43,148 bases of DNA from a bacterium (GTDB taxonomy: Bacteria > UBA10199 > JACPAL01 > GCA-016699445), in assembly GCA_035454885.1 (NCBI GenBank), contig DATIGE010000035.1, positions 1 through 43,148 of the forward strand. The letters run 5' to 3'. Shown in pieces: positions 13,031-34,518 of this stretch; position 1 is the stretch's first letter, and each line of letters opens with the position of its first letter. A model generated the notes under the pieces. It saw only the letters and a list, made by a program, of their open reading frames with translations. It was not told the origin of the DNA and searched no databases. The position numbers and the translations under genes were made by a program.

Positions 13031-13876
13031 TTAATAATTTATCAAAATGATAAGACGCTCGACGCCGCTGTAATCCCTCCGGATCTCACAGGGGAAGTCC
13101 TTTTTCAGCCGTTCCGCCTGACCCTCGCCGACTTCCATCAGCAACCGGCCCTTAATCTTGAGAAAGTCCGGCGCCTCCTGAAGGATCTTCTTGATGGTCT
13201 CCAATCCTCCCTGGCCTCCGTCCAACGCGCTCCGGGGTTCGTGCCGGCTGACTTCGGGCTGGAGGAAGTCGAGTTCCGAAGAGTCGATGTAGGGCGGATT
13301 GGAAACGATCAGGTCGAACTTCCGTTCCCGAGTCTCGAAAAACAGCCAAGGCGCGATGTCGGAGGTGACGAATTCGATTCGATCGGCGACGCCGTGGGCC
13401 TGGGCGTTTTCCTTGGCGACGGATAAGGCTTCTTTCGAGATATCCGTCGCCACGATTTTCGCGCCCGGAAGATTCTTGGCGAGGGCGATGGCGATGCAGC
13501 CGGAGCCGGTGCCGATGTCGAGGACGTCACCGGCCGGGGGGGCGTTTTTCAACGCCTCCTCCACCAGTAATTCCGTCTCGGGCCGCGGGATCAGCACCTC
13601 CGGCGTCACCTTGATTTTCAGTCCCCAAAATTCCGTCTCGCCGGTGATGTATTGCAACGGTTCGCGCGTCGCTCGCCGTTCGATCAATGCCTTGAATTCG
13701 GCGAGGTGCTTTTCGGAAACGGTCTTCTCAAATCCCGTGTAGAGGTCGACACGCTGGCATTTCAGAACGTAAGCCAGCAGGAGTTCCGCGTCGAGACGCG
13801 GATTGGGGATTCCCTTCTTTTCAAAATGACCGGCCGTCCACTGGATCAATTTGAGGGATGTCCAAGGTTCAGCCAT
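13031..13876 (-). CDS. prmC: Release factor glutamine methyltransferase
   Basis: 281 residues. Class I methyltransferase with VLDIGTGSGCIAIALAK (SAM-binding loop), the NPPY catalytic motif in DLIVSNPPYI, and the PRPETE segment of PrmC. It methylates the Gln of the GGQ motif of release factors, using SAM. The ATG overlaps the end of prfA by 8 nt, consistent with its substrate being encoded next to it. Confidence 0.96.
   Translation of the reverse strand: MAEPWTSLKLIQWTAGHFEKKGIPNPRLDAELLLAYVLKCQRVDLYTGFEKTVSEKHLAEFKALIERRATREPLQYITGETEFWGLKIKVTPEVLIPRPETELLVEEALKNAPPAGDVLDIGTGSGCIAIALAKNLPGAKIVATDISKEALSVAKENAQAHGVADRIEFVTSDIAPWLFFETRERKFDLIVSNPPYIDSSELDFLQPEVSRHEPRSALDGGQGGLETIKKILQEAPDFLKIKGRLLMEVGEGQAERLKKDFPCEIRRDYSGVERLIILINY
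13039..13053. promoter_or_regulatory. Single TTATCA-AAA-TGATAA palindrome in prmC 3' end
   Basis: A perfect 6-bp inverted repeat with a 3-bp spacer, the same half-sites as the tandem elements at 835 and 27628. Here it is single and lies within the last prmC codons, 64-78 bp upstream of the TSP3 lipoprotein ATG. No -24/-12 element follows it, so a regulatory role is doubtful. Confidence 0.25.
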
Positions 13877-19160: not shown

Positions 19161-22322
<3,162 letters not shown>

Positions 22323-22942: not shown

Positions 22943-24442
22943 ATGCCGGCCCGATTTCTTCGCAGAACCGCTCTGGTCGCACTCTTCCTCGCCATCATTG
23001 GAATGGCGGGCCGCGCCGCGACGGCGGAGACCGTTTACCTGACCGAGCAAAAGGTCATCGACCTGGCCTTGGAGAAGAACTTGTCCGTCCTGGTGGCGGG
23101 GGAGGACCGTGAGATCGGGCGGACGGGGATTCAAGGCGCCAAGTCGGTCTACGATACGCAGCTCTCTTTGACGGCGGACCACCTGATCGACAAGCGCGAC
23201 CAGGCCATTCCCGTCTTCGGGACCGACAACCGGACCACCAATTGGAATCTCGGTCTTTCGCGCGCGTTTCCGACCGGCACTCGGGCGGACCTCAATTGGA
23301 CCAACCAGCGAAATTCCACGAACTCTCCGTTCGCCACCCTCAATCCCTACTACGAGCCGGCGGTCGAGATGGCCCTCCGACAGCCCGTCCTGAAAAATAC
23401 CTTCGGTAAGCAGGACCGCGGCGGGGTGGCCCTGGCCAAGAAGCGGTTTGAGGAGATCGACTTTCTCGCCCGCCGGCGCGTGATGGAGGCGGTCTACGGC
23501 GTGCTCTCCGACTATTGGGCCTGGGTGACCCACCGGGGAAACGCCGACGTCACGGAAACCTCCGTGGCCGAGGCGCGCCGGTTAGAGGCCCTCGCGGCGG
23601 AGAAGAAGATCTTCGGGCTCTACGAGACGACGGACGTCCTCGCCGCCCGCGCCAACCGGATGCAAATGGAGAACCAGCTCACCGAAGCGATCCGCCAGAG
23701 GGACGACGCCCTCGGGCGCCTCAAAAGAGGGCTCGATTTCCCGGACGAGGAGGACGCGCGGTCGTCCGATGCGGTTCCCGTTTCGGCGGGGGGCGGGGGA
23801 CGCGAGGACGCGCTGGCCTCCGCGATGGCCAACCGCTCGGACTACGCCGCCGCCCGGGCCCGGGTCGAGGCGCAGAAGATCGAGGTCTCCCTCGCGCGGA
23901 ACCGCAAGTGGCCGCAAATGGATCTGGTCGCTTCCCTCCGGCTGAATGGCGTCGACACCTCCTACGGCAGCTCGCTCGGTGAGATCGGCGGCGGCGATCA
24001 CCCCGCCTACTTCTTCGGCGGCGAGTTCGCCTGGCCGATCGAGAACCGCCTCGCCAAAAGCGAGTCCCGGCGCGCCGAGCACGAGAAGAAGAAGGCCCTC
24101 TTCGAACTCAAGGACGTCGAGAACCGGGTCGCGCAGGAGGTCGAGGAGCGCTGGCGCGAGGTCCAGAGCACTCGGAAGCAGGTCGCGAACGCCCGCGAGA
24201 TCGAGCGGGTCGAGCGGGAGAAGTGGACCTTGGAACTGGAGAAGTACCGGGTCGGCCGGTCGTCGAGCGACCTCGTCATCCGCTATCAAGAAGACTACCT
24301 CGAGGCCCGCCGGAGGGCATTGGCCTCCCTCTTCCAGCACCGGATGGCGGTCCTGGGATTGAAATTGGCGGAAGAAACCTTGGTTGAAAGACACCGCAAC
24401 GGCGGTGCGGCTCGGTCTTCGGATTCGGGGGGCTCGCCGTGA
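22943..24442 (+). CDS. TolC-family outer-membrane efflux protein
   Basis: 499 residues. Signal peptide (..IGMAGRAATAE). Two long helical hairpin regions, as in OEP/TolC proteins, with beta-strand segments such as GLSRAFPTGTRADLNW and PAVEMALRQPVLKN. The C-terminus is charged. It forms a trimeric outer-membrane exit duct. The stop overlaps the RND gene start by 4 nt, so the two are coupled. No periplasmic adaptor (HlyD/MFP) gene is adjacent. Confidence 0.9.
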   Translation: MPARFLRRTALVALFLAIIGMAGRAATAETVYLTEQKVIDLALEKNLSVLVAGEDREIGRTGIQGAKSVYDTQLSLTADHLIDKRDQAIPVFGTDNRTTNWNLGLSRAFPTGTRADLNWTNQRNSTNSPFATLNPYYEPAVEMALRQPVLKNTFGKQDRGGVALAKKRFEEIDFLARRRVMEAVYGVLSDYWAWVTHRGNADVTETSVAEARRLEALAAEKKIFGLYETTDVLAARANRMQMENQLTEAIRQRDDALGRLKRGLDFPDEEDARSSDAVPVSAGGGGREDALASAMANRSDYAAARARVEAQKIEVSLARNRKWPQMDLVASLRLNGVDTSYGSSLGEIGGGDHPAYFFGGEFAWPIENRLAKSESRRAEHEKKKALFELKDVENRVAQEVEERWREVQSTRKQVANAREIERVEREKWTLELEKYRVGRSSSDLVIRYQEDYLEARRRALASLFQHRMAVLGLKLAEETLVERHRNGGAARSSDSGGSP

Positions 24443-27400
24443 ATCTGTCCGAATTCTCGGTCAAGAACTCGCTGCTCGTCAACTCCCTCTCCATCTTTCT
24501 GGTGGTGGCCGGCCTGCTCGCCCTCTTCCGGATCGAGCGGGAGGCCTTTCCCAATTTCTCCTTCGACATCGTCGTCGTCAGCACCGCCTACCGGGGTGCG
24601 CCGCCGGAGGTGATCGAGAAGCGCATCACGATCCCCCTCGAGAAGGAGCTGAAGGAGGTCAGCGACATCAAGAAGATGTATTCGATCTCCGTCGAGGGGC
24701 TTTCCGAGGTCGTCTTGGAGCTCGACCCCGACGCCCCGGACAAGGACCGGATCTATAACGACATCCAGAAGGCCGTCGACGACGCGGACGACCTGCCGGA
24801 GGACCTCGAGGACGATCCCAAGGTGATCGAGCTTCAAACGAAGGACACGCCGCTCGTCATCGTCTCGCTTTCGGGCGACATGCCGGAGATGGAGCTGCGG
24901 GAGCTCGCGTTGCGCCTCGAGACGGAAATCCTGGACTTGAGCGAGGTTTCGAAGGTGCAGCGCGAGGGCCTGCGCGACCGGGAGATCTGGGTCGAGCTCG
25001 ATCCGGCGAAGATGGCGACCCATTGGATCTCCCTGACCCAGGTCACGGAGGCGTTGAGCGCGCGGAACGTCAACGTCGCGGGCGGGTTGCAGAAGGGCCG
25101 TGAGCGCGAGCTCATCCTCCGGACCTCCGGCGAGCTCGAGAACGCGGACGACGTGCGCCGCGTGATCCTCAGGGCCAACGAAGAGGGCCATTGGGTGCGC
25201 GTGGGCGACATCGCCGCCGTGAGCGACGGTTTTGAAGAGGAGCGCTTCATCGAGCGCACCGACGGGAGCCGTGCCATCAACCTGATGGTCGTCAAGAAGG
25301 ACAGGGCCGACGCCATCCGCCTGATGAAGGACCTCCAGACGGTCTTGGACGATTTCAAGTCGCGGAATAGGCCCGAGCTGAAGATCGCCCTGGTCGACGA
25401 CATCTCCTATTACATCAAACGACGCCTGAACGTCCTCATTTCCAACGGCTGGATCGGTCTCCTTTTCGTGATCATACCGATGGTCATTTTCCTGTCCTGG
25501 CGGGTCGCATTGGGGGCGTTGATGGGGATCGCGGTCGCTCTCCTCTCGGCCATCGCGGCCATGAATTTTCTCGGGATCAGCATCAACCTTATCTCCATGT
25601 TCGGGCTCATCATGGTCTTGGGCATGCTCGTGGACGAGGACCTGGTCGTCGCCGACAACATCTCCCGCTATCTGGAGGAGGGGAAGGCGCACGTCGAGGC
25701 GGCGATCGCGGGGTCCTCCGAGGTGGGGCGGGCCATCATCTCGACGGTCCTGACGACCATCATCGCCTTCATTCCGCTCCTGTTCATGAGCGGGATCTTC
25801 GGCAAGTTCGTAAGCGACATCCCCAAGGTGGTCATCATCACGCTCACCGCATCGCTCCTGGAGGCGCTCGTGATCCTGCCGTCCCACCTCTCGGACCTGA
25901 GCCGGCCCAAAAAGGAGGGGCAAAAATCGTCCTTCGAGAAAAAGGTTCAGCATCATTACTTCGACCGTTTCAGGGACCTCTATGTGCGCTCGCTCCGTTA
26001 CAGCCTCAAGCATCCGATTTGGACGACCGTCTTATCTTTCGGAGTCATCGCCCTCGCCGTCCTTTACGCCGTCCTCGGTCTGAAGTTCGTGCTGTTTCCC
26101 GCCAAGGGCATCGAGGCGTTCTTCATCCGGGCGCAGGCGCCCATCGGCACCTCCCTCGAACGGATGGAGGAAAAAATGCAGGTCCTGGAAAGACTCGCGA
26201 TGGTGCTTCTCAAGAACGAGCTGGATCACGTGGTGACGGACGTCGGCGTCGTCCAGAACGACCCCAGCGACCCTTTCACCGAGCGGGGCTCCCACGTGGG
26301 GCAGGTGGTGGTCTACCTGACCCCCGAGACGAAGCGCGACCGGGAGGCCGGCGAGATCATGGAGGCGCTTCGCGCGAAGCTCCCTCCGAGCGTCTCGGAA
26401 TGGGGATTCGAGCGCGTGAGCTTCGACCCGATCAAGCCGGGCCCTCCGGTGGGCAAGCCCGTCGCCGTGCGGATCCGCGGAGACGAACTGAAGGAATTGG
26501 ACGCACTCGCCGAGGACTTCAAGGCGGAGCTGGCCAAGTTTCCGGGCGTCGAGGATATCCGCGACGATTACGAGCGCGGCAAGGGGGAACTCAACATCGT
26601 CGTCGACGAGGAGAGGGCGTCGCAGGCCGGGCTCAATTACCAAGACATCGCGATGACGGTCCGCCAGGCGTTCCAGGGCCTGAAGGCGACGACCATCCGC
26701 AAGACGGACGACGAGATCGACGTGGTGGTCCGCCTCCCGGAGGAGAAGCGCCACGACCCCGGGGAAATCGAATCGCTGCTGATTGAGAACAAGATGGGCA
26801 ACCTGGTGCGCCTCGCGGACGTGGCGCGATTGGAGGAGGGCCCCGGCGTAAGCGAGATCAAGCACTTTGACCGAAAGAGAGTGGTCACGGTGACCGCCAA
26901 CGTGGACGAGGAGGTCATCACGTCCCGGGAAGTGAACACCCTTCTCAAGAAAAAATTCGGGACCGCCTCCAAGGACCATCCCGGCATCGCCTTTGCCTAC
27001 GGCGGGGAGGACGAGGACACGCAGGAATCCATGCGGAGCCTCTTCCGGGCGCTCGCCGGGGCGATGTTCCTGATCTTCATCGTCCTGCTCGTCACCTTCG
27101 AGTCCATGCTGCAGACCTTCATCATCATGCTGGCGATCCCGTTCGGTCTCGTGGGGGTTGTCATCGGCTTCGCGCTCGCCGGGGAGCCCATCGGATTTCT
27201 GGCGTTCCTGGGCATCATCGGCATGACCGGCGTCGTGGTCGACGGCGGTACGCTCGTCTTCGTCTTCATCAACCGCATCAAGAGGGAAGGCATTCCCATC
27301 AAGGACGCCATCCTGGCCGGTTGCGGCGTCCGGCTCCGCTCGATCCTCCTGACCACGCTCACGACCGTCCTGGGCATCGTCCCCGCCGCCTACGGCATCG

Positions 27401-27567
27401 GCGGCAGCGACCCCTTCATCCAGCCGATGGCGCTCGCCCTCAACTGGAGCATCGGGGTCTCGATCTTCTTCACCCTCTACACGGTGCCAAGCCTGTATTA
27501 CCTCGCCGACAAGGCGACGGTCCGAATGCGGAAGTTGCTCCCTTGGAACGGCGAGGAGAGGAGCTAG
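24439..27567 (+). CDS. RND-superfamily efflux pump inner-membrane subunit
   Basis: 1042 residues, full length for AcrB-like pumps, from GTG at 24439. N-terminal helix, porter domain, helices 2-6 (about residues 335-480), second porter domain, and helices 8-12 (about 870-1030). In TM4 the usual VDDAIVV is VDEDLVVADN, so the acidic pair is kept as Asp-Glu. In TM10, where AcrB has a lysine, the sequence is GVVVDGGTLVF. It exports substrates using proton motive force; the substrate is unknown. It is coupled to tolC. Confidence 0.92.
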   Translation: MNLSEFSVKNSLLVNSLSIFLVVAGLLALFRIEREAFPNFSFDIVVVSTAYRGAPPEVIEKRITIPLEKELKEVSDIKKMYSISVEGLSEVVLELDPDAPDKDRIYNDIQKAVDDADDLPEDLEDDPKVIELQTKDTPLVIVSLSGDMPEMELRELALRLETEILDLSEVSKVQREGLRDREIWVELDPAKMATHWISLTQVTEALSARNVNVAGGLQKGRERELILRTSGELENADDVRRVILRANEEGHWVRVGDIAAVSDGFEEERFIERTDGSRAINLMVVKKDRADAIRLMKDLQTVLDDFKSRNRPELKIALVDDISYYIKRRLNVLISNGWIGLLFVIIPMVIFLSWRVALGALMGIAVALLSAIAAMNFLGISINLISMFGLIMVLGMLVDEDLVVADNISRYLEEGKAHVEAAIAGSSEVGRAIISTVLTTIIAFIPLLFMSGIFGKFVSDIPKVVIITLTASLLEALVILPSHLSDLSRPKKEGQKSSFEKKVQHHYFDRFRDLYVRSLRYSLKHPIWTTVLSFGVIALAVLYAVLGLKFVLFPAKGIEAFFIRAQAPIGTSLERMEEKMQVLERLAMVLLKNELDHVVTDVGVVQNDPSDPFTERGSHVGQVVVYLTPETKRDREAGEIMEALRAKLPPSVSEWGFERVSFDPIKPGPPVGKPVAVRIRGDELKELDALAEDFKAELAKFPGVEDIRDDYERGKGELNIVVDEERASQAGLNYQDIAMTVRQAFQGLKATTIRKTDDEIDVVVRLPEEKRHDPGEIESLLIENKMGNLVRLADVARLEEGPGVSEIKHFDRKRVVTVTANVDEEVITSREVNTLLKKKFGTASKDHPGIAFAYGGEDEDTQESMRSLFRALAGAMFLIFIVLLVTFESMLQTFIIMLAIPFGLVGVVIGFALAGEPIGFLAFLGIIGMTGVVVDGGTLVFVFINRIKREGIPIKDAILAGCGVRLRSILLTTLTTVLGIVPAAYGIGGSDPFIQPMALALNWSIGVSIFFTLYTVPSLYYLADKATVRMRKLLPWNGEERS

Positions 27568-27627: not shown

Positions 27628-27659
27628 TTATCAAAATGAGAAAATTATCAATTTGAGAC
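27628..27659. promoter_or_regulatory. Second tandem TTATCA-N3-TGAGA element, candidate activator site
   Basis: TTATCA-AAA-TGAGAA (27628-27642) and TTATCA-ATT-TGAGAC (27645-27659), 17 bp apart. Same half-sites, spacer and tandem layout as at 835-867. The centre lies about 105 bp before the predicted sigma-54 start near 27748, the usual distance for an enhancer-binding protein site. Confidence 0.65.
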
Positions 27660-27721
27660 ACGTCTACACGCCGCAGGCTTACAAAAAACAAATAGTTTCA
27701 AAGGGGTGGCTCAACGACATC

Positions 27722-27736
27722 TGGCCCACGAGTTGC
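27722..27736 (+). promoter_or_regulatory. Candidate sigma-54 promoter of the exported-protein gene
   Basis: TGGCCC-N5-TTGCA: one mismatch in the -24 box, exact -12 box and spacing. The predicted start near 27748 leaves a 17-nt leader with GGGGAG before the ATG at 27765. Confidence 0.6.
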
Positions 27737-27764
27737 ACCACCTAATGGCTACGGGGAGTAAAAT

Positions 27765-28448
27765 ATGAAAAAACGGAATATCTTCCTAACAGCCTCCATC
27801 ATTCTCTTTCTGGCGTCAGGCTCCGTTCTCCGAGCAGAGGTCACAATGAGTCCGGAGAAGTTGAAAGACTTGCAGGTCAAGCCGTGGTTGCCCAAATCCA
27901 CCGCGACTTTCAGTGCATCGTTGCCCGCGCGGGTGGAAACGCCAGAGGTGCCCCACGTGACGATCGAGACGACCTCTTGCCGATATGCCGAAGAGGAGCC
28001 CACGGCATCCGAGTACGTTGACTACAAGGAAAGCCGCTACTGCCGCCTGCCGCTACCCGAGGGAGCCGTGGTCACGCGAATTACGGCTTTCATGGTTTCG
28101 GATGAGAGGGAGGACTCGGCTGCTTTTGTTGACCGATTGCTGGATAACGGCAACTCCTCCGCGAAATTCATCGTCGTTCCGGAACATGTGGTCGACGATC
28201 ACTACGTGACCGGGGCCGTCGTCTGTACCTCGGGGGGGACGAATCCCGGTTTTATGGCGATCCATGAGAGGAAGAAGACGTTCGATTGCCGGGTGGGCAT
28301 TCCCGTTGACCAGGATAGTTCTTTCTATGTTCGAATCGAGAGCCGGGTGAAGGCAAGGCCGGAATTTCGGGACGTCGTTATGACCTCTAAACACATCATC
28401 TTTCCGATCGTCAGACTGATTCAAGTGGAATACGAGGGCGGCAGTTGA
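27765..28448 (+). CDS. Exported protein of unknown function
   Basis: 227 residues. Signal peptide (MKKRNIFLTASIILFLASGSVLRAE). The mature part is probably beta-rich, with four cysteines (TSCRY, RYCRL, VVCTS, FDCRV) that could form two disulfides. I recognise no family. Base composition looks lower in GC than the neighbours, and the upstream 200 bp are AT-rich, which may mean an acquired or specially regulated gene. It sits behind a candidate sigma-54 promoter with a tandem activator site. Confidence 0.75.
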   Translation: MKKRNIFLTASIILFLASGSVLRAEVTMSPEKLKDLQVKPWLPKSTATFSASLPARVETPEVPHVTIETTSCRYAEEEPTASEYVDYKESRYCRLPLPEGAVVTRITAFMVSDEREDSAAFVDRLLDNGNSSAKFIVVPEHVVDDHYVTGAVVCTSGGTNPGFMAIHERKKTFDCRVGIPVDQDSSFYVRIESRVKARPEFRDVVMTSKHIIFPIVRLIQVEYEGGS

Positions 28449-28532
28449 GGATTGGACGGCTCGGCTTAGAATCCATCCAACCCTTGACAAACCAGGCAAC
28501 TTTTGCGTCTTTTCGCCGACTTAGAACGCCAG

Positions 28533-29738
28533 ATGATCCGCTCCTTTCCAGCCGGTACCGTACTAGCGGCACTGAATCCCATCGGAGTGGGCACGACCTC
28601 GGCCTCCGTTTCCGATCTCTCCCTTTCGGAGGACCTCCAGCGTCAATCCCGCCATATCGCCTACGAGTACATGAGCCTCCGGGAGATCCGGTATCAGAAC
28701 GGCCCGGAGTCGGGAGAATTCGTAACGACCCAGGAGGCGGTCACCTCGAGACTGGACAGCCTCTTCCTGTCCCTTTTGGGGCGCGGTGTGACCGAGGGGG
28801 CGATTGTCGAGGAGGCGAGGTTGGCGGAGTCCACGTTGCGGGAGATCCGGACCCTCTACAATAAGGACCACTTCTTTACCAGGCCCATGCACGCCTTCTA
28901 CCGGTCGTTCACGGTCTTGAGCCCGGATTACGACCTCTTCGGGGAGGAGCTTTTTCAGAACCTTTTTCACTACCGGCGCCGGCGCGACGAGGATGAGCGG
29001 AAGTTCATGGAGCGGTTCGACCCCTTCGCGCAGGAGATCCGGGCGATCATCGAGAATATCAGCCAGGGCTTCAACTTCAGCTATTTCCACATCGAACTTC
29101 GCATCAAACGCGACCTCCTTCCCAAGTTCATGAAACGCGTCGAGGAAGAGGATTGGACCAACATGAGGGAGAAGTTTTTCGATCTGATCGGCCTGAGGAT
29201 CGTTGTCCGCTCCCAGGCGGAGGTGGATGCGGCGGTGGCCCTGGTGGAGGGCGCCATGAAGCTCCACGAGGCCGCGGCCCGGAGCCAGGAAGGGTGCCCC
29301 CATTTCCTCCGGGTGGCTAACATCGAGATCAAGGACAACGCGAGGGGGTACCGCGCCAAGCACATCAATATCGTGCGGACCTGCAACGGCAAGAAAAAGG
29401 ATTACGCGATCGCCGAGATCCAGGTCATGAGCCTGGGTACCAAGGAGTGGGGGGACATCCAAAGGCTTCTGGTCTACAAGGACGACGGGATTCCCGAATC
29501 CTTGAAGGCGGAATTGAACGTTTATTGCCGCGCGGCGGCGGATTTCATCGTGGCCTGCGAGGGCGGGCCCGTCATGGACAAACCCCCCCAATTCGAGATC
29601 ATGGCCTTGAACCGCATTCCGGACGAAAAGCTCCGGATGGACGTGCTCGACCGCCTGGCCGACATGGACTTTCTGATGAAGCGGTATCAAGAGGGCTCGC
29701 TCACCTTGCCGGAGCCCGAAAGGCCCTCCAGCCCTTAA
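28533..29738 (+). CDS. RelA/SpoT-like nucleotidyltransferase domain protein
   Basis: 401 residues from ATG at 28533 (a TTG at 28503 is an alternative). Residues about 1-175 are helical and unrecognised. About 180-315 match the RelA/SpoT synthetase fold: ELRIKRDLLPKF, FDLIGLRIVV (metal Asp), IKDNARGYRAKHINI (pyrophosphate-acceptor loop Tyr) and AIAEIQVMS (the Glu-x-Gln pair). There is no HD hydrolase, TGS or ACT domain, so it is not a classical Rel. Synthesis of (p)ppGpp or another pyrophosphorylated product is possible; activity is unproven. Its stop overlaps the stop of the convergent lipoprotein gene. Confidence 0.78.
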   Translation: MIRSFPAGTVLAALNPIGVGTTSASVSDLSLSEDLQRQSRHIAYEYMSLREIRYQNGPESGEFVTTQEAVTSRLDSLFLSLLGRGVTEGAIVEEARLAESTLREIRTLYNKDHFFTRPMHAFYRSFTVLSPDYDLFGEELFQNLFHYRRRRDEDERKFMERFDPFAQEIRAIIENISQGFNFSYFHIELRIKRDLLPKFMKRVEEEDWTNMREKFFDLIGLRIVVRSQAEVDAAVALVEGAMKLHEAAARSQEGCPHFLRVANIEIKDNARGYRAKHINIVRTCNGKKKDYAIAEIQVMSLGTKEWGDIQRLLVYKDDGIPESLKAELNVYCRAAADFIVACEGGPVMDKPPQFEIMALNRIPDEKLRMDVLDRLADMDFLMKRYQEGSLTLPEPERPSSP

Positions 29739-30313
29739 AGTTCATCCGCCCGGATCGAATTCTCCGTGATGTTCAAGTCCGCACAGGACTGCGCCGGATA
29801 CCCCGTCACATCGACGACCCGATAGGCGGCCGAGACCGTCTGCGGCGTCAAGTTCATGAGGACGAAGGCGTAGTCGGCCGCCCCGGTCACCTGGCAAAAA
29901 TCCGGACCGTCCCCGGCGTTCCGCGAGGCGCAACGCGAGGTCCGGTCCGCATCCGGGCAGAGCCCCTCCACCGACGCGGTCTCGGTGTTGACCTGGTCCG
30001 ACTCGCAGACCTCGAGGTCCGCGTCCTCGCCGGGCGAGGGATCGATGATGACGCAGAGGACGTGCGACGGGTCTTGGTCCGCGACGGTTCCGATCTTGCC
30101 GCCCTGATCGTCCGGCCCGGGCTCGACGACCGTGACCATCTCCGTGTCGTCCGGGTCGATGGCCCCCGCCGGCGTCACGGGAGCCTCGCTCACGTCCTCG
30201 AAATTCGCGTTCACCGTCCCGCGGGCCGCCCCGCCCCCGCAGCCGGCGCCTCCTCCAGAGAAAAATGCGAGGCCGGCGAAAACGATCCCCAAAGCCGTCA
30301 GACAAGTCCTCAT
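29735..30313 (-). CDS. Small lipoprotein of unknown function
   Basis: 192 residues from ATG at 30313, preceded by AGGAGGG. Lipobox GAGC with Cys25, then a Gly-rich linker. The mature part has six more cysteines, likely disulfide-bonded, and is acidic. No family recognised. Divergent from the giant membrane protein gene, convergent with the RelA/SpoT-like gene. Confidence 0.75.
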   Translation of the reverse strand: MRTCLTALGIVFAGLAFFSGGGAGCGGGAARGTVNANFEDVSEAPVTPAGAIDPDDTEMVTVVEPGPDDQGGKIGTVADQDPSHVLCVIIDPSPGEDADLEVCESDQVNTETASVEGLCPDADRTSRCASRNAGDGPDFCQVTGAADYAFVLMNLTPQTVSAAYRVVDVTGYPAQSCADLNITENSIRADEL

Positions 30314-30384
30314 GCACCCTCCTGGATTTTTTCGGTCCATACCATCCTCCATTCGTGATACGGGAGGAAAATATCGAGGCGAAC

Positions 30385-33300
30385 ATGACACGCAAATTCT
30401 CTTCCTTCGTCGCTTTCCTCTGTCTCTTCTTATCCTCCGTTCCCGACCTGAGCGCCGAGTTTCAGGTCCCCGAGCCCCTCAAGCCCTGGACCGCATGGGT
30501 CCTAAAAGGGCGGGAGGATCAGCTCTGCCCGTTCTTCAACGGAACGGCGGGGACGCTCTGCCGCTGGGTGTCGCCGATGGATCTCTCGCTCGACGACACG
30601 AAGGGATCGTTCTCCGTCCAGGCCCGGATCTTCGAGGAAGCTTGGATTCCTTTGCCTGGCGACGCCGATCACTGGCCCCAGGAGGTGAGGGCGGGGGGGA
30701 ACGCCCTTGCCCTCGTCGAGAGGGACGGTCGTCCCCAGGTCTTCGTGCCGAAGGGGACCTACGCCCTGACCGGCGTCTTTTCTTGGGACCGCCTGCCCGA
30801 TTCGCTGGCGCTTCCCGCGGAGATCGGTGTGGTGCGCCTGACCCTTCGCGGAAGCCCCGCCGCGCGCGTGCAGAGGGACGAGGACGGACGCCTCTGGCTC
30901 GAATCGAAACCGATGCCCGCCTTCTTAGAGCCCGAGCGCGATCGGCTTGAAGTGCGCGTGCACCGGCTCCTGATCGACGAGGTTCCGTTCACGATGACGA
31001 CGCGGATCACTCTGGAGGTCTCCGGAAAGACGCGCGACGTGCTCCTGCCTTCGCCGCTGCCGGAGGGATTCATCCCCATGTCCCTGGAGAGCCCGATCCC
31101 GGCGGAGTTGGAAAAGGACGGCAAGATCCGCGTTCAGGCCAAGACCGGGACCTGGGACCTGGAACTGAGGGCGCGCCATCACGGACCGGTGAAAGAAATC
31201 GCCTTGGGGGCGTCTGATATCCCTTGGCCGGAGGAGGAAGTTTGGGCCTTCGAGGCGAGGAACGAATTGAGGCTCGTGAACGTCACGGGCGTCCCCGCGA
31301 TCGATCCGACCCAGACGACGCTCCCCGAGGCGTGGAAGTCCCATCCCGCCTACCGGATCCGTCCGGGCGAGACGATCGCCTTCGACGAAAGGCGCCGCGG
31401 GGCCTCGACGGACGCGCCCGACCGGATTTCCCTGGACCGCAACCTCTGGCTGGACTTCGATGGCCGGGGTTACACCGTCCGGGACGCCATCTCGGGAACG
31501 ATGGTCAAGAGCGCGCGCCTCGAGGTCTCCGAGCCCCTGGCCCTCGGGCACGTGTCGGTGAACGGCAAGGACCAGCTCATCACGAGCCTGGGCGAGGGCA
31601 AGAGAGGCGTGGAGATCCGGCAGGGGGGCGTGACGGTTCAGGCGGACAGCCGCATCGAATCGGGCGCGCGGTCGGTCCCCGCCACGGGCTGGGGACAGAC
31701 CTTCGAGCGCGTGACCGAGGTCCTGCAACTCCCTCCGGGATGGCGCGCCTTCGCGGTCTTCGGGGCGGATGCCGCGCCGGCGACCTGGCTGGGCCGCTGG
31801 ACGCTCTTGGAGATCTTTCTCGTCCTCATCATCGCCCTCTCCTTCGCCAAGCTCTGGGGAGTCCGGTGGGGCGTCGCGGCCCTCTCGGGGCTCGGTCTCA
31901 CCGCGACCGAGGCAGGGGCCCCCCTCTGGGCCTGGATCGCCGTCTTGATCGGCGCCGGGTTGCTCCGGTTCCTCCCCGAAGGGCGGTTTCGGAGGCTCGT
32001 GCGGCTCTACCGGATCGGCGCCGTTCTCGTCCTGATCGTCGTCGCCGTTCCCTTTTTGGTCGACCAGGTGAGGATGGGCCTCTATCCCTCGCTCGAGCCG
32101 ACGGGCGCGTACCCGATGCCCGTCGCCACCTCGGCGGGGGGCTACGGGGCGATGGCCCCACAGGCCGAGCCCATGCCTCCGCCACCGCCTCCGGCGGCGT
32201 TGGAGGTGGAAGCCGATCGGGGCTTGGAGGAAGCCCCCAGGGTCCAGCAAGAGGTGTCCCAGGTCGCCAAATCAGAATCGATGGCAAGAATGGTCATACG
32301 TTCGAAGGCCAAGAAGGCCCCGTCCCAGCTCTTGAACGAGTACCAACCGGGGGCCAAGGTGCAGACCGGACCGGGCCTGCCCGAGTGGAGCTGGCGCCGG
32401 GTTGAAATCATTTGGTGGGGACCGGTGGAGGAGGGGGAGTCGCTCTTCCTGGTCTTGATACCGCCCTTCCTGAACCTCCTCCTGAGCTTCGCCCGGGTGG
32501 CCCTGCTCGCGCTCTTGCTCGCGCGCGTCTTGGAGCGCCCCTTCCTCTTTCGTCCCGGCCGGAAGGCGGCGGCCGCGGCGGCGGCCTTGGCGATGATGCT
32601 CGTCGGGAGCCAGGCCCGCGCGGAGTTCCCCACGCCGGATCTCTTGCAAGAGCTACAAAACCGTCTCTTGGAAAGGCCCGAGTGCCAACCCCACTGCGCG
32701 ACGATCCCGCGGATGCGCTTGGAGGTCTCTCCCCAGTCGCTGACCGCCCGCATGGAGGTGCATGTCGAGGCCGCAAGCGCCGTTCCCCTTCCCGGTACGC
32801 TCAAGGAATGGTCACCGACGGAGGTGATGGTCGGGGGGGCCGCCGTTGTTGTGAAGCCCGGCGACAAGGGAAAGGCCGCGGCGGCGGGAGGAACGGCGCA
32901 CCTCACGCGCACCGGGGACGGACGGCTGTGGATCGTCCTGGACGCCGGCGTGCATCAGGTGCTCATGACCGGCCCCTTGCCCGATCGCCAGAACGTGCAG
33001 GTCCCGTTGCCGCTCAAGCCACGGTACATCGAGGCCAAGGCCGAGGGTTGGAGCCTCCTCGGGCTCCATGAAGACGGAGTCGCCGACGACAACCTCCAGC
33101 TCGTGAGGAGCCAGATCGCCTCGGAGACCTCTCCGGCCTCCCAGGGACGGGCGGATTCCGGCGCCGCCTTGCCCGCGTTTCTGACGGTGGAGAGGCGGAT
33201 CATCCTGGGGCTGACCTGGGAGGTCGAGACCCGCGTCGCGCGCGAAACACCGGTCGGCACCGCCGTGGTCGTGCAAGTGCCCCTCCTCGTGGGCGAATCG

Positions 33301-34518
33301 GTGACGACACCGGGAATGCGCGTGGAGGGCGGCAAGGTGACGGTCAATCTGGGTCCGCAGGCGACGGAGGTGTCTTGGAGGTCGGCGCTCCTCGAGTCCC
33401 CCACGATCCCGCTGAAGGCCGATGACTCGACCTGGTGGACCGAGGTTTGGACGATCGAGGCGAGCCCGATCTGGCATGTGCGGATGGAAGGGATCCCCGT
33501 CGTGCACCATTTCGAGGACGGCGGGGACTGGTTGCCGACGTTCAGGCCCTGGCCGGGGGAGGAGGCGGTGTTGCACGTCTTCCGCCCGGAGGCGGTCGAA
33601 GGCCCGACGCTGACCATCGACCGGAGCCGACTGACGCTGACCCCGGGCTCACGCTCGACGGAGGCCTCTGTGGCGCTCTCCATTCGCAGCAGCCTGGGTG
33701 GCCAGCATACGATCACGCTTCCCGAGGGGGCGGAGTTGAAGTCGGTCTCGATCAACGGGAGCGCGCAGCCGATCGCCGCGGTGGGGGACAAGGTGACGCT
33801 CCCCGTCGTGCCGGGCGCGCAGGCCGTGGAACTCGCTTGGAACGAGCCGCGCGGGATCTCGACGCACTTCCGCGCCCCCGCGCTGGATTTGGGGGCGCCG
33901 AGCGTGAACGCCGAAGCGAGGATCTCCATTCCGCGGCGCTGGGTGCTGTGGGCGAGCGGCCCCCGCCTCGGGCCCGCCGTGCTGTTCTGGGGCCTGGTGG
34001 TGGTGCTGGCCCTGATCGCCGTGGGGCTGGGGCGCGTCCGGCTGACACCGCTGAAGGCCCATCATTGGTTCTTGTTGGGACTGGGGCTCACCCAGGTCCC
34101 CATTTGGTCTTCGATCTTCGTGGCCCTGTGGCTCCTCGCCTTGGGCTGGCGCCGCAACCGGGACCTGCCCGGCCGCTTCGTCTTCGACCTGCGCCAGCTC
34201 TTCGTCGTGGGCCTGACCGTCGCGGCCTTGGTGGTCTTGGTCTTCTCCATCGAACGGGGACTCTTGGGCATTCCCGTCATGCAGATCGAGGGGAACGGGT
34301 CCAGCGACTCCCTGCTCCTCTGGTTCCAGGATAGAATATCCACTGAATTTCCGAGGCCTTGGGTCGTGACGCTCCCCATGTACGTCTACCGGATCGCCAT
34401 GCTTGTTTGGGCGGTCTGGCTGGCGATGGCCCTGCTCAAATGGCTTAAATGGGGCTGGGAATGCTTCTCGACCGGGGGTCTTTGGAGGCCCCTCCGTAAT
34501 CGGCTCGTCCAAAAATAG
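30385..34518 (+). CDS. Very large multi-pass membrane protein of unknown function
   Basis: 1377 residues from ATG at 30385 (GAGG 6 nt upstream). Signal peptide, then a beta-rich exported region (to about 465), helices at about 471-491, 500-530 and 545-563, and a Pro-rich stretch (MPPPPPPAAL). Two further hydrophobic segments follow (about 683-715 and 727-748), the second looking like a signal peptide with an ARA-E cleavage site. A second large exported beta-rich region (about 750-1190) and four C-terminal helices end the protein. No enzymatic motif seen. The two halves look like related or fused envelope proteins. Confidence 0.8.
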   Translation: MTRKFSSFVAFLCLFLSSVPDLSAEFQVPEPLKPWTAWVLKGREDQLCPFFNGTAGTLCRWVSPMDLSLDDTKGSFSVQARIFEEAWIPLPGDADHWPQEVRAGGNALALVERDGRPQVFVPKGTYALTGVFSWDRLPDSLALPAEIGVVRLTLRGSPAARVQRDEDGRLWLESKPMPAFLEPERDRLEVRVHRLLIDEVPFTMTTRITLEVSGKTRDVLLPSPLPEGFIPMSLESPIPAELEKDGKIRVQAKTGTWDLELRARHHGPVKEIALGASDIPWPEEEVWAFEARNELRLVNVTGVPAIDPTQTTLPEAWKSHPAYRIRPGETIAFDERRRGASTDAPDRISLDRNLWLDFDGRGYTVRDAISGTMVKSARLEVSEPLALGHVSVNGKDQLITSLGEGKRGVEIRQGGVTVQADSRIESGARSVPATGWGQTFERVTEVLQLPPGWRAFAVFGADAAPATWLGRWTLLEIFLVLIIALSFAKLWGVRWGVAALSGLGLTATEAGAPLWAWIAVLIGAGLLRFLPEGRFRRLVRLYRIGAVLVLIVVAVPFLVDQVRMGLYPSLEPTGAYPMPVATSAGGYGAMAPQAEPMPPPPPPAALEVEADRGLEEAPRVQQEVSQVAKSESMARMVIRSKAKKAPSQLLNEYQPGAKVQTGPGLPEWSWRRVEIIWWGPVEEGESLFLVLIPPFLNLLLSFARVALLALLLARVLERPFLFRPGRKAAAAAAALAMMLVGSQARAEFPTPDLLQELQNRLLERPECQPHCATIPRMRLEVSPQSLTARMEVHVEAASAVPLPGTLKEWSPTEVMVGGAAVVVKPGDKGKAAAAGGTAHLTRTGDGRLWIVLDAGVHQVLMTGPLPDRQNVQVPLPLKPRYIEAKAEGWSLLGLHEDGVADDNLQLVRSQIASETSPASQGRADSGAALPAFLTVERRIILGLTWEVETRVARETPVGTAVVVQVPLLVGESVTTPGMRVEGGKVTVNLGPQATEVSWRSALLESPTIPLKADDSTWWTEVWTIEASPIWHVRMEGIPVVHHFEDGGDWLPTFRPWPGEEAVLHVFRPEAVEGPTLTIDRSRLTLTPGSRSTEASVALSIRSSLGGQHTITLPEGAELKSVSINGSAQPIAAVGDKVTLPVVPGAQAVELAWNEPRGISTHFRAPALDLGAPSVNAEARISIPRRWVLWASGPRLGPAVLFWGLVVVLALIAVGLGRVRLTPLKAHHWFLLGLGLTQVPIWSSIFVALWLLALGWRRNRDLPGRFVFDLRQLFVVGLTVAALVVLVFSIERGLLGIPVMQIEGNGSSDSLLLWFQDRISTEFPRPWVVTLPMYVYRIAMLVWAVWLAMALLKWLKWGWECFSTGGLWRPLRNRLVQK

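Follow-up and report, generated by a model that had tools for sequence, protein, structure and literature searches.

Paired palindromes before predicted sigma-54 promoters of exported-protein genes in a UBA10199 bacterium, and an FHA-domain candidate for their activator

Closest described systems

Enhancers of the NtrC/NorR type are tandem arrays in which each promoter has several palindromes recognised by a Fis-type HTH, lying about 100 bp upstream. The locus described here resembles them in its palindromic multi-site layout, but its half-site differs and no nitrogen-control profile accompanies it. The nearest published cases found appear to be the PrsR/PEP-CTERM system and VasH of type VI secretion (T6SS).

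In the PEP-CTERM/EpsH regulon, as Haft et al. 2006 (PMC1569441) describe it, single genes for exported proteins are preceded by an activator motif that is sometimes repeated and, after some 63 nt of spacer, by a sigma-54 -24/-12 promoter; the PrsK-PrsR activator was traced by profiling the DNA motif phylogenetically. Motif 1 there has 17 nt and ends in TTTACA, and the activator is a receiver-type enhancer-binding protein (EBP); one PEP-CTERM-type gene is reported to be RpoN-dependent (PMC9850573). The layout at the present locus is alike, with a repeated activator motif, a spacer, a -24/-12 element and exported targets. The parts are different, however: in the host genome studied here (G000; 2.76 Mb in 82 contigs) the site is TTATCA-N3-TGATAA and the candidate activator has an FHA domain, whereas the PrsR system has a motif ending in TTTACA and a receiver EBP. 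The candidate FHA-EBP also fails the PrsR model TIGR02915 (334 bits against a cut-off of 502.6), and no PEP-CTERM-like tail was seen by eye in the ORF at the present locus or in the 9 complete C-termini among 14 targets looked up, the remaining 5 being cut by the end of a stretch.

VasH is described in a review (PMC10482370) as a bEBP encoded inside a type VI secretion cluster which, with sigma-54 (RpoN), also switches on distant clusters. On that description, a bEBP gene inside a secretion cluster is common to both systems, as is activation of distant genes, which for G000 is a proposal; the G000 system differs in being type II, in the FHA domain of its candidate and in having single scattered genes as targets. 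An FHA-type sigma-54 enhancer-binding protein tied to type II secretion was not found in the literature search. The comparison suggests that the new elements would be the enhancer sequence, the probable FHA-type activator and the type II link.

The locus at 27628-27765

The window, meaning the whole 43,148-nucleotide stretch of DNA that was analysed, contains an intergenic gap of 197 bp between an AcrB-family gene (24439-27567) and an ORF of 227 amino acids (27765-28448, plus strand). Two putative activator sites were recognized by sequence on the plus strand of this gap: a distal site at 27628-27642, TTATCA-AAA-TGAGAA (TTATCAAAATGAGAA), and a proximal site at 27645-27659, TTATCA-ATT-TGAGAC (TTATCAATTTGAGAC). 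They lie 17 bp apart, just as a sequence-only reading of this DNA had described them. Measured from its midpoint, the proximal site lies 70 bp 5' of the -24 element of a predicted plus-strand sigma-54 promoter at 27722-27737, TGGCCC-ACGAG-TTGCA (TGGCCCACGAGTTGCA), which agrees with 10 of 11 consensus positions. That element had likewise been read correctly as TGGCCC-N5-TTGCA before the ORF. From general -24/-12 geometry, transcription would start near 27748. The leader had been credited with a ribosome-binding site, and one is seen by eye, GGGGAG at 27753-27758 on the plus strand, 5' of the ATG at 27765. The spacer is 53% AT, against 38% for the window; the sequence-only reading had likened this AT-richness to that of typical activator sites and, as a conjecture, IHF sites. 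Paired palindromes forming an upstream activating sequence (UAS) for a sigma-54 promoter are, on sequence, almost certainly what 27628-27737 contains, and the module is one of at least 14 predicted in G000, the majority of which precede exported-protein genes.

The product had been called an exported, Cys-containing protein, and its predicted features agree: the N-terminus reads MKKRNIFLTASIILFLASGSVLRA, which is signal-peptide-like, and there are 4 Cys in the sequence. A Pfam search with the 227-residue protein gave no match, no homologue was found in 98 other genomes, with a scan of genome contigs likewise empty, and a single-sequence AlphaFold model was worthless (mean pLDDT 34.6). Farther along, the window has an ORF with a RelA/SpoT domain at 28503-29738 and then a 1417-residue ORF at 30265-34518 without a Pfam match.

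Other sites in the window

A second module lies near the start of the window, where pattern matching gave a perfect palindrome at 835-849, TTATCAAAGTGATAA, and a plus-strand site at 853-867, TTATCATTTTGAGAT, 18 bp from the first. Its promoter, TGGCACTCGGCTTGCT, matches 11 of 11 positions on the minus strand (737-752) and faces the minus-strand gene 723-1, predicted to encode an exported Cys-rich protein that runs off the window. The ranking of the 27628 copy as the cleaner of the two therefore does not stand, its score being 10/11 against 11/11 here. The promoter (752-737) is only about 13 nt before the called ATG, leaving almost no leader, and the protein has two adjoining copies of a 19-residue repeat, ATEYQAVYTAPEARPTLQA. 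On the other side of 835-867, a sigma-70-like TTGACA-N17-TATGTT faces a VWA gene at 959.

A single perfect palindrome at 13039-13053 is about 64 bp upstream of a minus-strand lipoprotein-like ORF and has no -24/-12 element nearby; there are about ten single sites of this kind in the genome.

The palindrome in the host genome and its relatives

The site consensus is a 15-bp palindrome, TTATCA-N3-TGATAA, of which the copies at 27628-27659 carry TGAGA variants. Allowing at most one mismatch, TTATCANNNTGAGA has 7 matches in the window against 0.21 in shuffles, and its exact form occurs 12 times in G000 against 0 for the reversed control. The full palindrome with at most one mismatch gave 101 strand-matches in G000 and 4 for the reversed pattern, a symmetric place being counted on both strands in these figures. 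Exact TTATCANNNTGATAA was present in 24 of 60 genomes, with few control matches; every one of the five genomes from the host's order has it, at 3-11 places apiece, and so do several further families within the class. Sampling for relaxed sites showed some excess in G022 and one tandem site in the sample of G001, with no excess in the samples of G014, G027 and G012. Distant relatives (about 39-53% identity) from the genome-contig scan were at loci that showed neither gsp matches nor a perfect site.

Association with -24/-12 promoters

By itself the -24/-12 pattern is weak evidence, and its significance comes from position beside the palindromes. The exact pattern occurs 40 times in G000 and 21 times in reversed controls, a modest difference that can be cited in favour of a chance resemblance within an AT-rich intergenic stretch. 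Seven of the 40, however, point away from a palindrome cluster at a bEBP-like distance. When clusters were scored for a -24/-12 element of at least 10/11 lying 45-125 bp away, 14 of 27 in G000 had one, against 1.3% in the control (binomial 1e-19); this set covered 31 of 42 stretches plus the window, counted only perfect or tandem sites, and left out a duplicate (L003) and ten stretches with weak or in-gene sites (L087, L088, L089, L090, L091, L092, L094, L095, L101 and L104). In relatives the same association was found for 26 of 37 clusters (8/12 in G001, 5/7 in G004, where the set comprised 7 of 8 exact sites, 6/8 in G006 and 7/10 in G013), with controls of 0-1.7%. It was also found at both loci of G002/G005, and at 6 of 17 single loci, mostly from site-poor genomes.

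Site-to-site spacing in G000 was 17 or 18 bp in 14 of 14 cases. Tandem clusters had a promoter in 11 of 14 cases in G000 and 23 of 27 in relatives, single ones in 4 of 14 and 5 of 12, and the distance from the centre of the proximal site to the -24 element had a median of 90 bp in G000 and 82 bp in relatives. Taken together, the counts of enrichment, phasing, promoter co-location and cross-family conservation refute chance resemblance, which can be given next to no credence. The reading of tandem activator sites with a sigma-54 promoter, first made from sequence alone, is thus supported by statistics across the genome and across families.

An eighth exact -24/-12 match beside palindromes (C10:22134) has the palindromes downstream of the promoter. 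These are tandem sites at C10:22053-22085 (L015), 3' of the perfect element at 22134-22149 and near the start of a lipoprotein gene.

Roughly half of the site clusters in G000 are without a -24/-12 element, and sigma-70-like hexamers, noted by eye, follow the single sites L105 and L096 and the plus side of 835-867 at plausible distances. The same palindrome may serve another regulator as well, or may work in a second way. These observations would also fit a palindrome regulator that is not a bEBP and acts at sigma-70 promoters as well, the sigma-54 promoters being one class of its targets; that is improbable, however, as in several families tandem sites go closely together with -24/-12 elements at the distances expected of a bEBP.

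Target genes and conservation

Absence of either element from orthologous loci had been named as the finding that would overturn the module. The 227-residue ORF, with no homologue in 98 other genomes, offered no orthologous loci for this comparison. A different target showed conservation in five genomes drawn from four families (G000, G002, G004, G005 and G006); it is a small protein, 104 amino acids long as called in G000, and two sites plus a TGGCAT-N5-ATGC element are kept in 5 of 5 genomes. This best-conserved target family (L004, L041, L042, L124 and L140) has the motif GSIHFDRGRGEIFYKGHN; no signal peptide was found in it by the hydrophobicity rule, and no Pfam family.

Of the first genes at sigma-54-linked sites, 18 of 21 were signal-peptide-like, compared with 30 of 99 background genes (p 3e-6). 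The 21 sites are those with a promoter score of at least 9, and export was scored by a simple hydrophobicity rule on N-termini; at least two target picks (L098:3478 and L103) are questionable or in the wrong frame, and L100:5351 probably passed the rule falsely. Domains among the targets include DUF4215 and beta-propellers; a match to an M12-type metallopeptidase was weak.

Two G000 proteins, from L028 and L151, end in GG-CSLIR, which is like a C-terminal Cys sorting tail but has no membrane helix after it. As a common sorting signal the GGCSLIR tail was rejected, being present in only 2 ORFs in all loci examined.

Candidate activators

The host genome has one copy of RpoN and 30 Sigma54_activat hits, 24 of them substantial. 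It also has about a dozen very large proteins (some 1170-1560 amino acids; L147, L148, L150-L158, L160 and L161) with a sigma-54 activator domain and HTH at the end, many having a kinase-like N-terminus, and in two places (L146 and L149) kinase and GAF-EBP form split operons.

The sequence-only reading had proposed a search for the activator by correlating the motif with sigma-54 activators in related genomes. That correlation was carried out, and it points to an FHA-type activator. A PF00158 search gave seven EBPs in G004, and those of G001 were taken from protein and profile searches; within these searches, the EBPs in common were a conserved trio and the FHA-EBP. By phylogenetic profile and elimination, the best candidate is the FHA-AAA-HTH_8 protein (G000:C15:6878-8152), an assignment that is favoured with some reserve.

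The FHA-EBP unites FHA, Sigma54_activat (AAA+) and HTH_8 domains in one protein. The GAFTGA loop and the FHA G/S/H/N residues are kept in five family members, and one row of the GAFTGA alignment has a G-to-S change just before the loop. A recognition helix of the form ST[LI][FY] was found in 11 of 11 genomes with at least three exact palindromes against 9 of 25 others (p 0.0006, with ancestry not corrected), in a search that covered 30 of 59 other genomes, chosen by the author. On the FHA-EBP tree, from which five rows were omitted as their best hit was not an FHA-EBP of the candidate's type, 3 changes account for the site-rich label, compared with 9.6 when it is shuffled. The ST[LI][FY] helix also occurs in FHA-EBPs of nine genomes with 0-1 exact sites, and 200-kb samples of two STLF genomes of this sort (G027 and G012) showed no site excess. 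Three site-poor genomes lacking the helix (G020, G026 and G036) have one site each with a good -24/-12 element. A Ser/Thr kinase gene comes after the FHA-EBP in G004, which fits phosphothreonine signalling but is a single case.

With 24 substantial activators on hand in G000, the UAS and promoter could be genuine and another bEBP could bind them, either one of the clustered, conserved NtrC-family trio (G000:C54) or an activator linked to Ser/Thr-kinase/TPR/GAF proteins. Most, if not all, of eight genomes compared have the trio, and in one kinase/GAF-EBP operon a palindrome stands 76 bp before the kinase. The recognition helices of the trio, however, do not differ between site-rich and site-free genomes, and no long kinase-linked EBP was found in G002, G004 and G005, which carry sites. 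Binding by one of these proteins is accordingly considered unlikely, if still deserving attention. The number of long kinase/GAF EBPs was separately rejected as an explanation, genomes of family f13 having many such EBPs and 0-1 exact sites.

An NtrC-like two-component regulator (L163:1846-3282) would instead make this a nitrogen-control regulon. Among the EBPs it alone gave reciprocal best hits in G002, G004 and G005 while giving none in four site-free genomes, but the search of 60 genomes gave no orthologue-level match in site-rich G001, G013, G041 and G044, and matches of 53-57% identity are present in site-free G009, G015, G019, G024 and G029. As the general activator it is ruled out by the 60-genome profile and would have a species-specific role at most; a nitrogen-control regulon is thus very improbable.

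Linkage of the FHA-EBP to type II secretion

The candidate FHA-EBP is encoded at or close to the 3' end of a type II secretion (gsp) cluster in five genomes: by the next gene after gspN in G000, G001, G006 and G013, and about 4 kb after gspN in G003. These five linked genomes are all site-rich, with 5-17 exact sites. GspN, GspD and GspE were identified by NCBIfam, and GspK/GspM rest partly on weaker Pfam matches. Of the site-rich genomes, 5 of 11 showed linkage to gsp, and of the site-poor ones 0 of 14 (Fisher p 0.0087), in a sample of 26 loci from 25 genomes in which some loci span no more than about 4 kb; in the remaining 20 genomes (21 of 26 loci), six of them site-rich, the FHA-EBP is away from gsp genes. 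The palindrome is absent from the gsp/FHA stretches of G000, G001 and G013, and there is therefore no autoregulation through the TTATCA-N3-TGATAA motif in them.

Since the FHA-EBP gene of G000 directly follows gspN, production of the exporter may be coupled to that of its cargo. Such a functional link with type II secretion is held to be just short of an even call, and the targets would then presumably be type II substrates.

Proposed mechanism and meaning

The FHA-EBP would bind the tandem palindromes as adjacent dimers through its Fis-type HTH. Its FHA domain would take in a signal, probably Ser/Thr phosphorylation, after which the protein would oligomerise, loop across about 60-130 bp to RNA polymerase-sigma-54 at the -24/-12 element and, with its GAFTGA loop intact, open the promoter. 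Sequence statistics support these parts of the prediction: the sites and the way they are phased, their association with promoters, conservation, export of the targets, the presence of RpoN and linkage to gsp. The explanation as a whole, with module, FHA activator and type II link, is regarded as probable. The specific proposal that the type II cluster's own phosphothreonine-sensing (FHA) sigma-54 activator drives cargo genes across the genome through tandem TTATCA-N3-TGATAA is tentative, and is rated somewhat short of an even chance.

In summary, the analysis of one intergenic gap and its counterparts has led to a testable regulon in a little-studied lineage, with a site, a promoter, a candidate activator and targets. 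It is suggested that a single sigma-54 activator links a secretion machine to its cargo, and that orphan exported proteins may be assigned to a common programme by their DNA sites alone. If this is true, a DNA motif would read out the secretome, including orphans such as the 227-residue protein, without protein homology.
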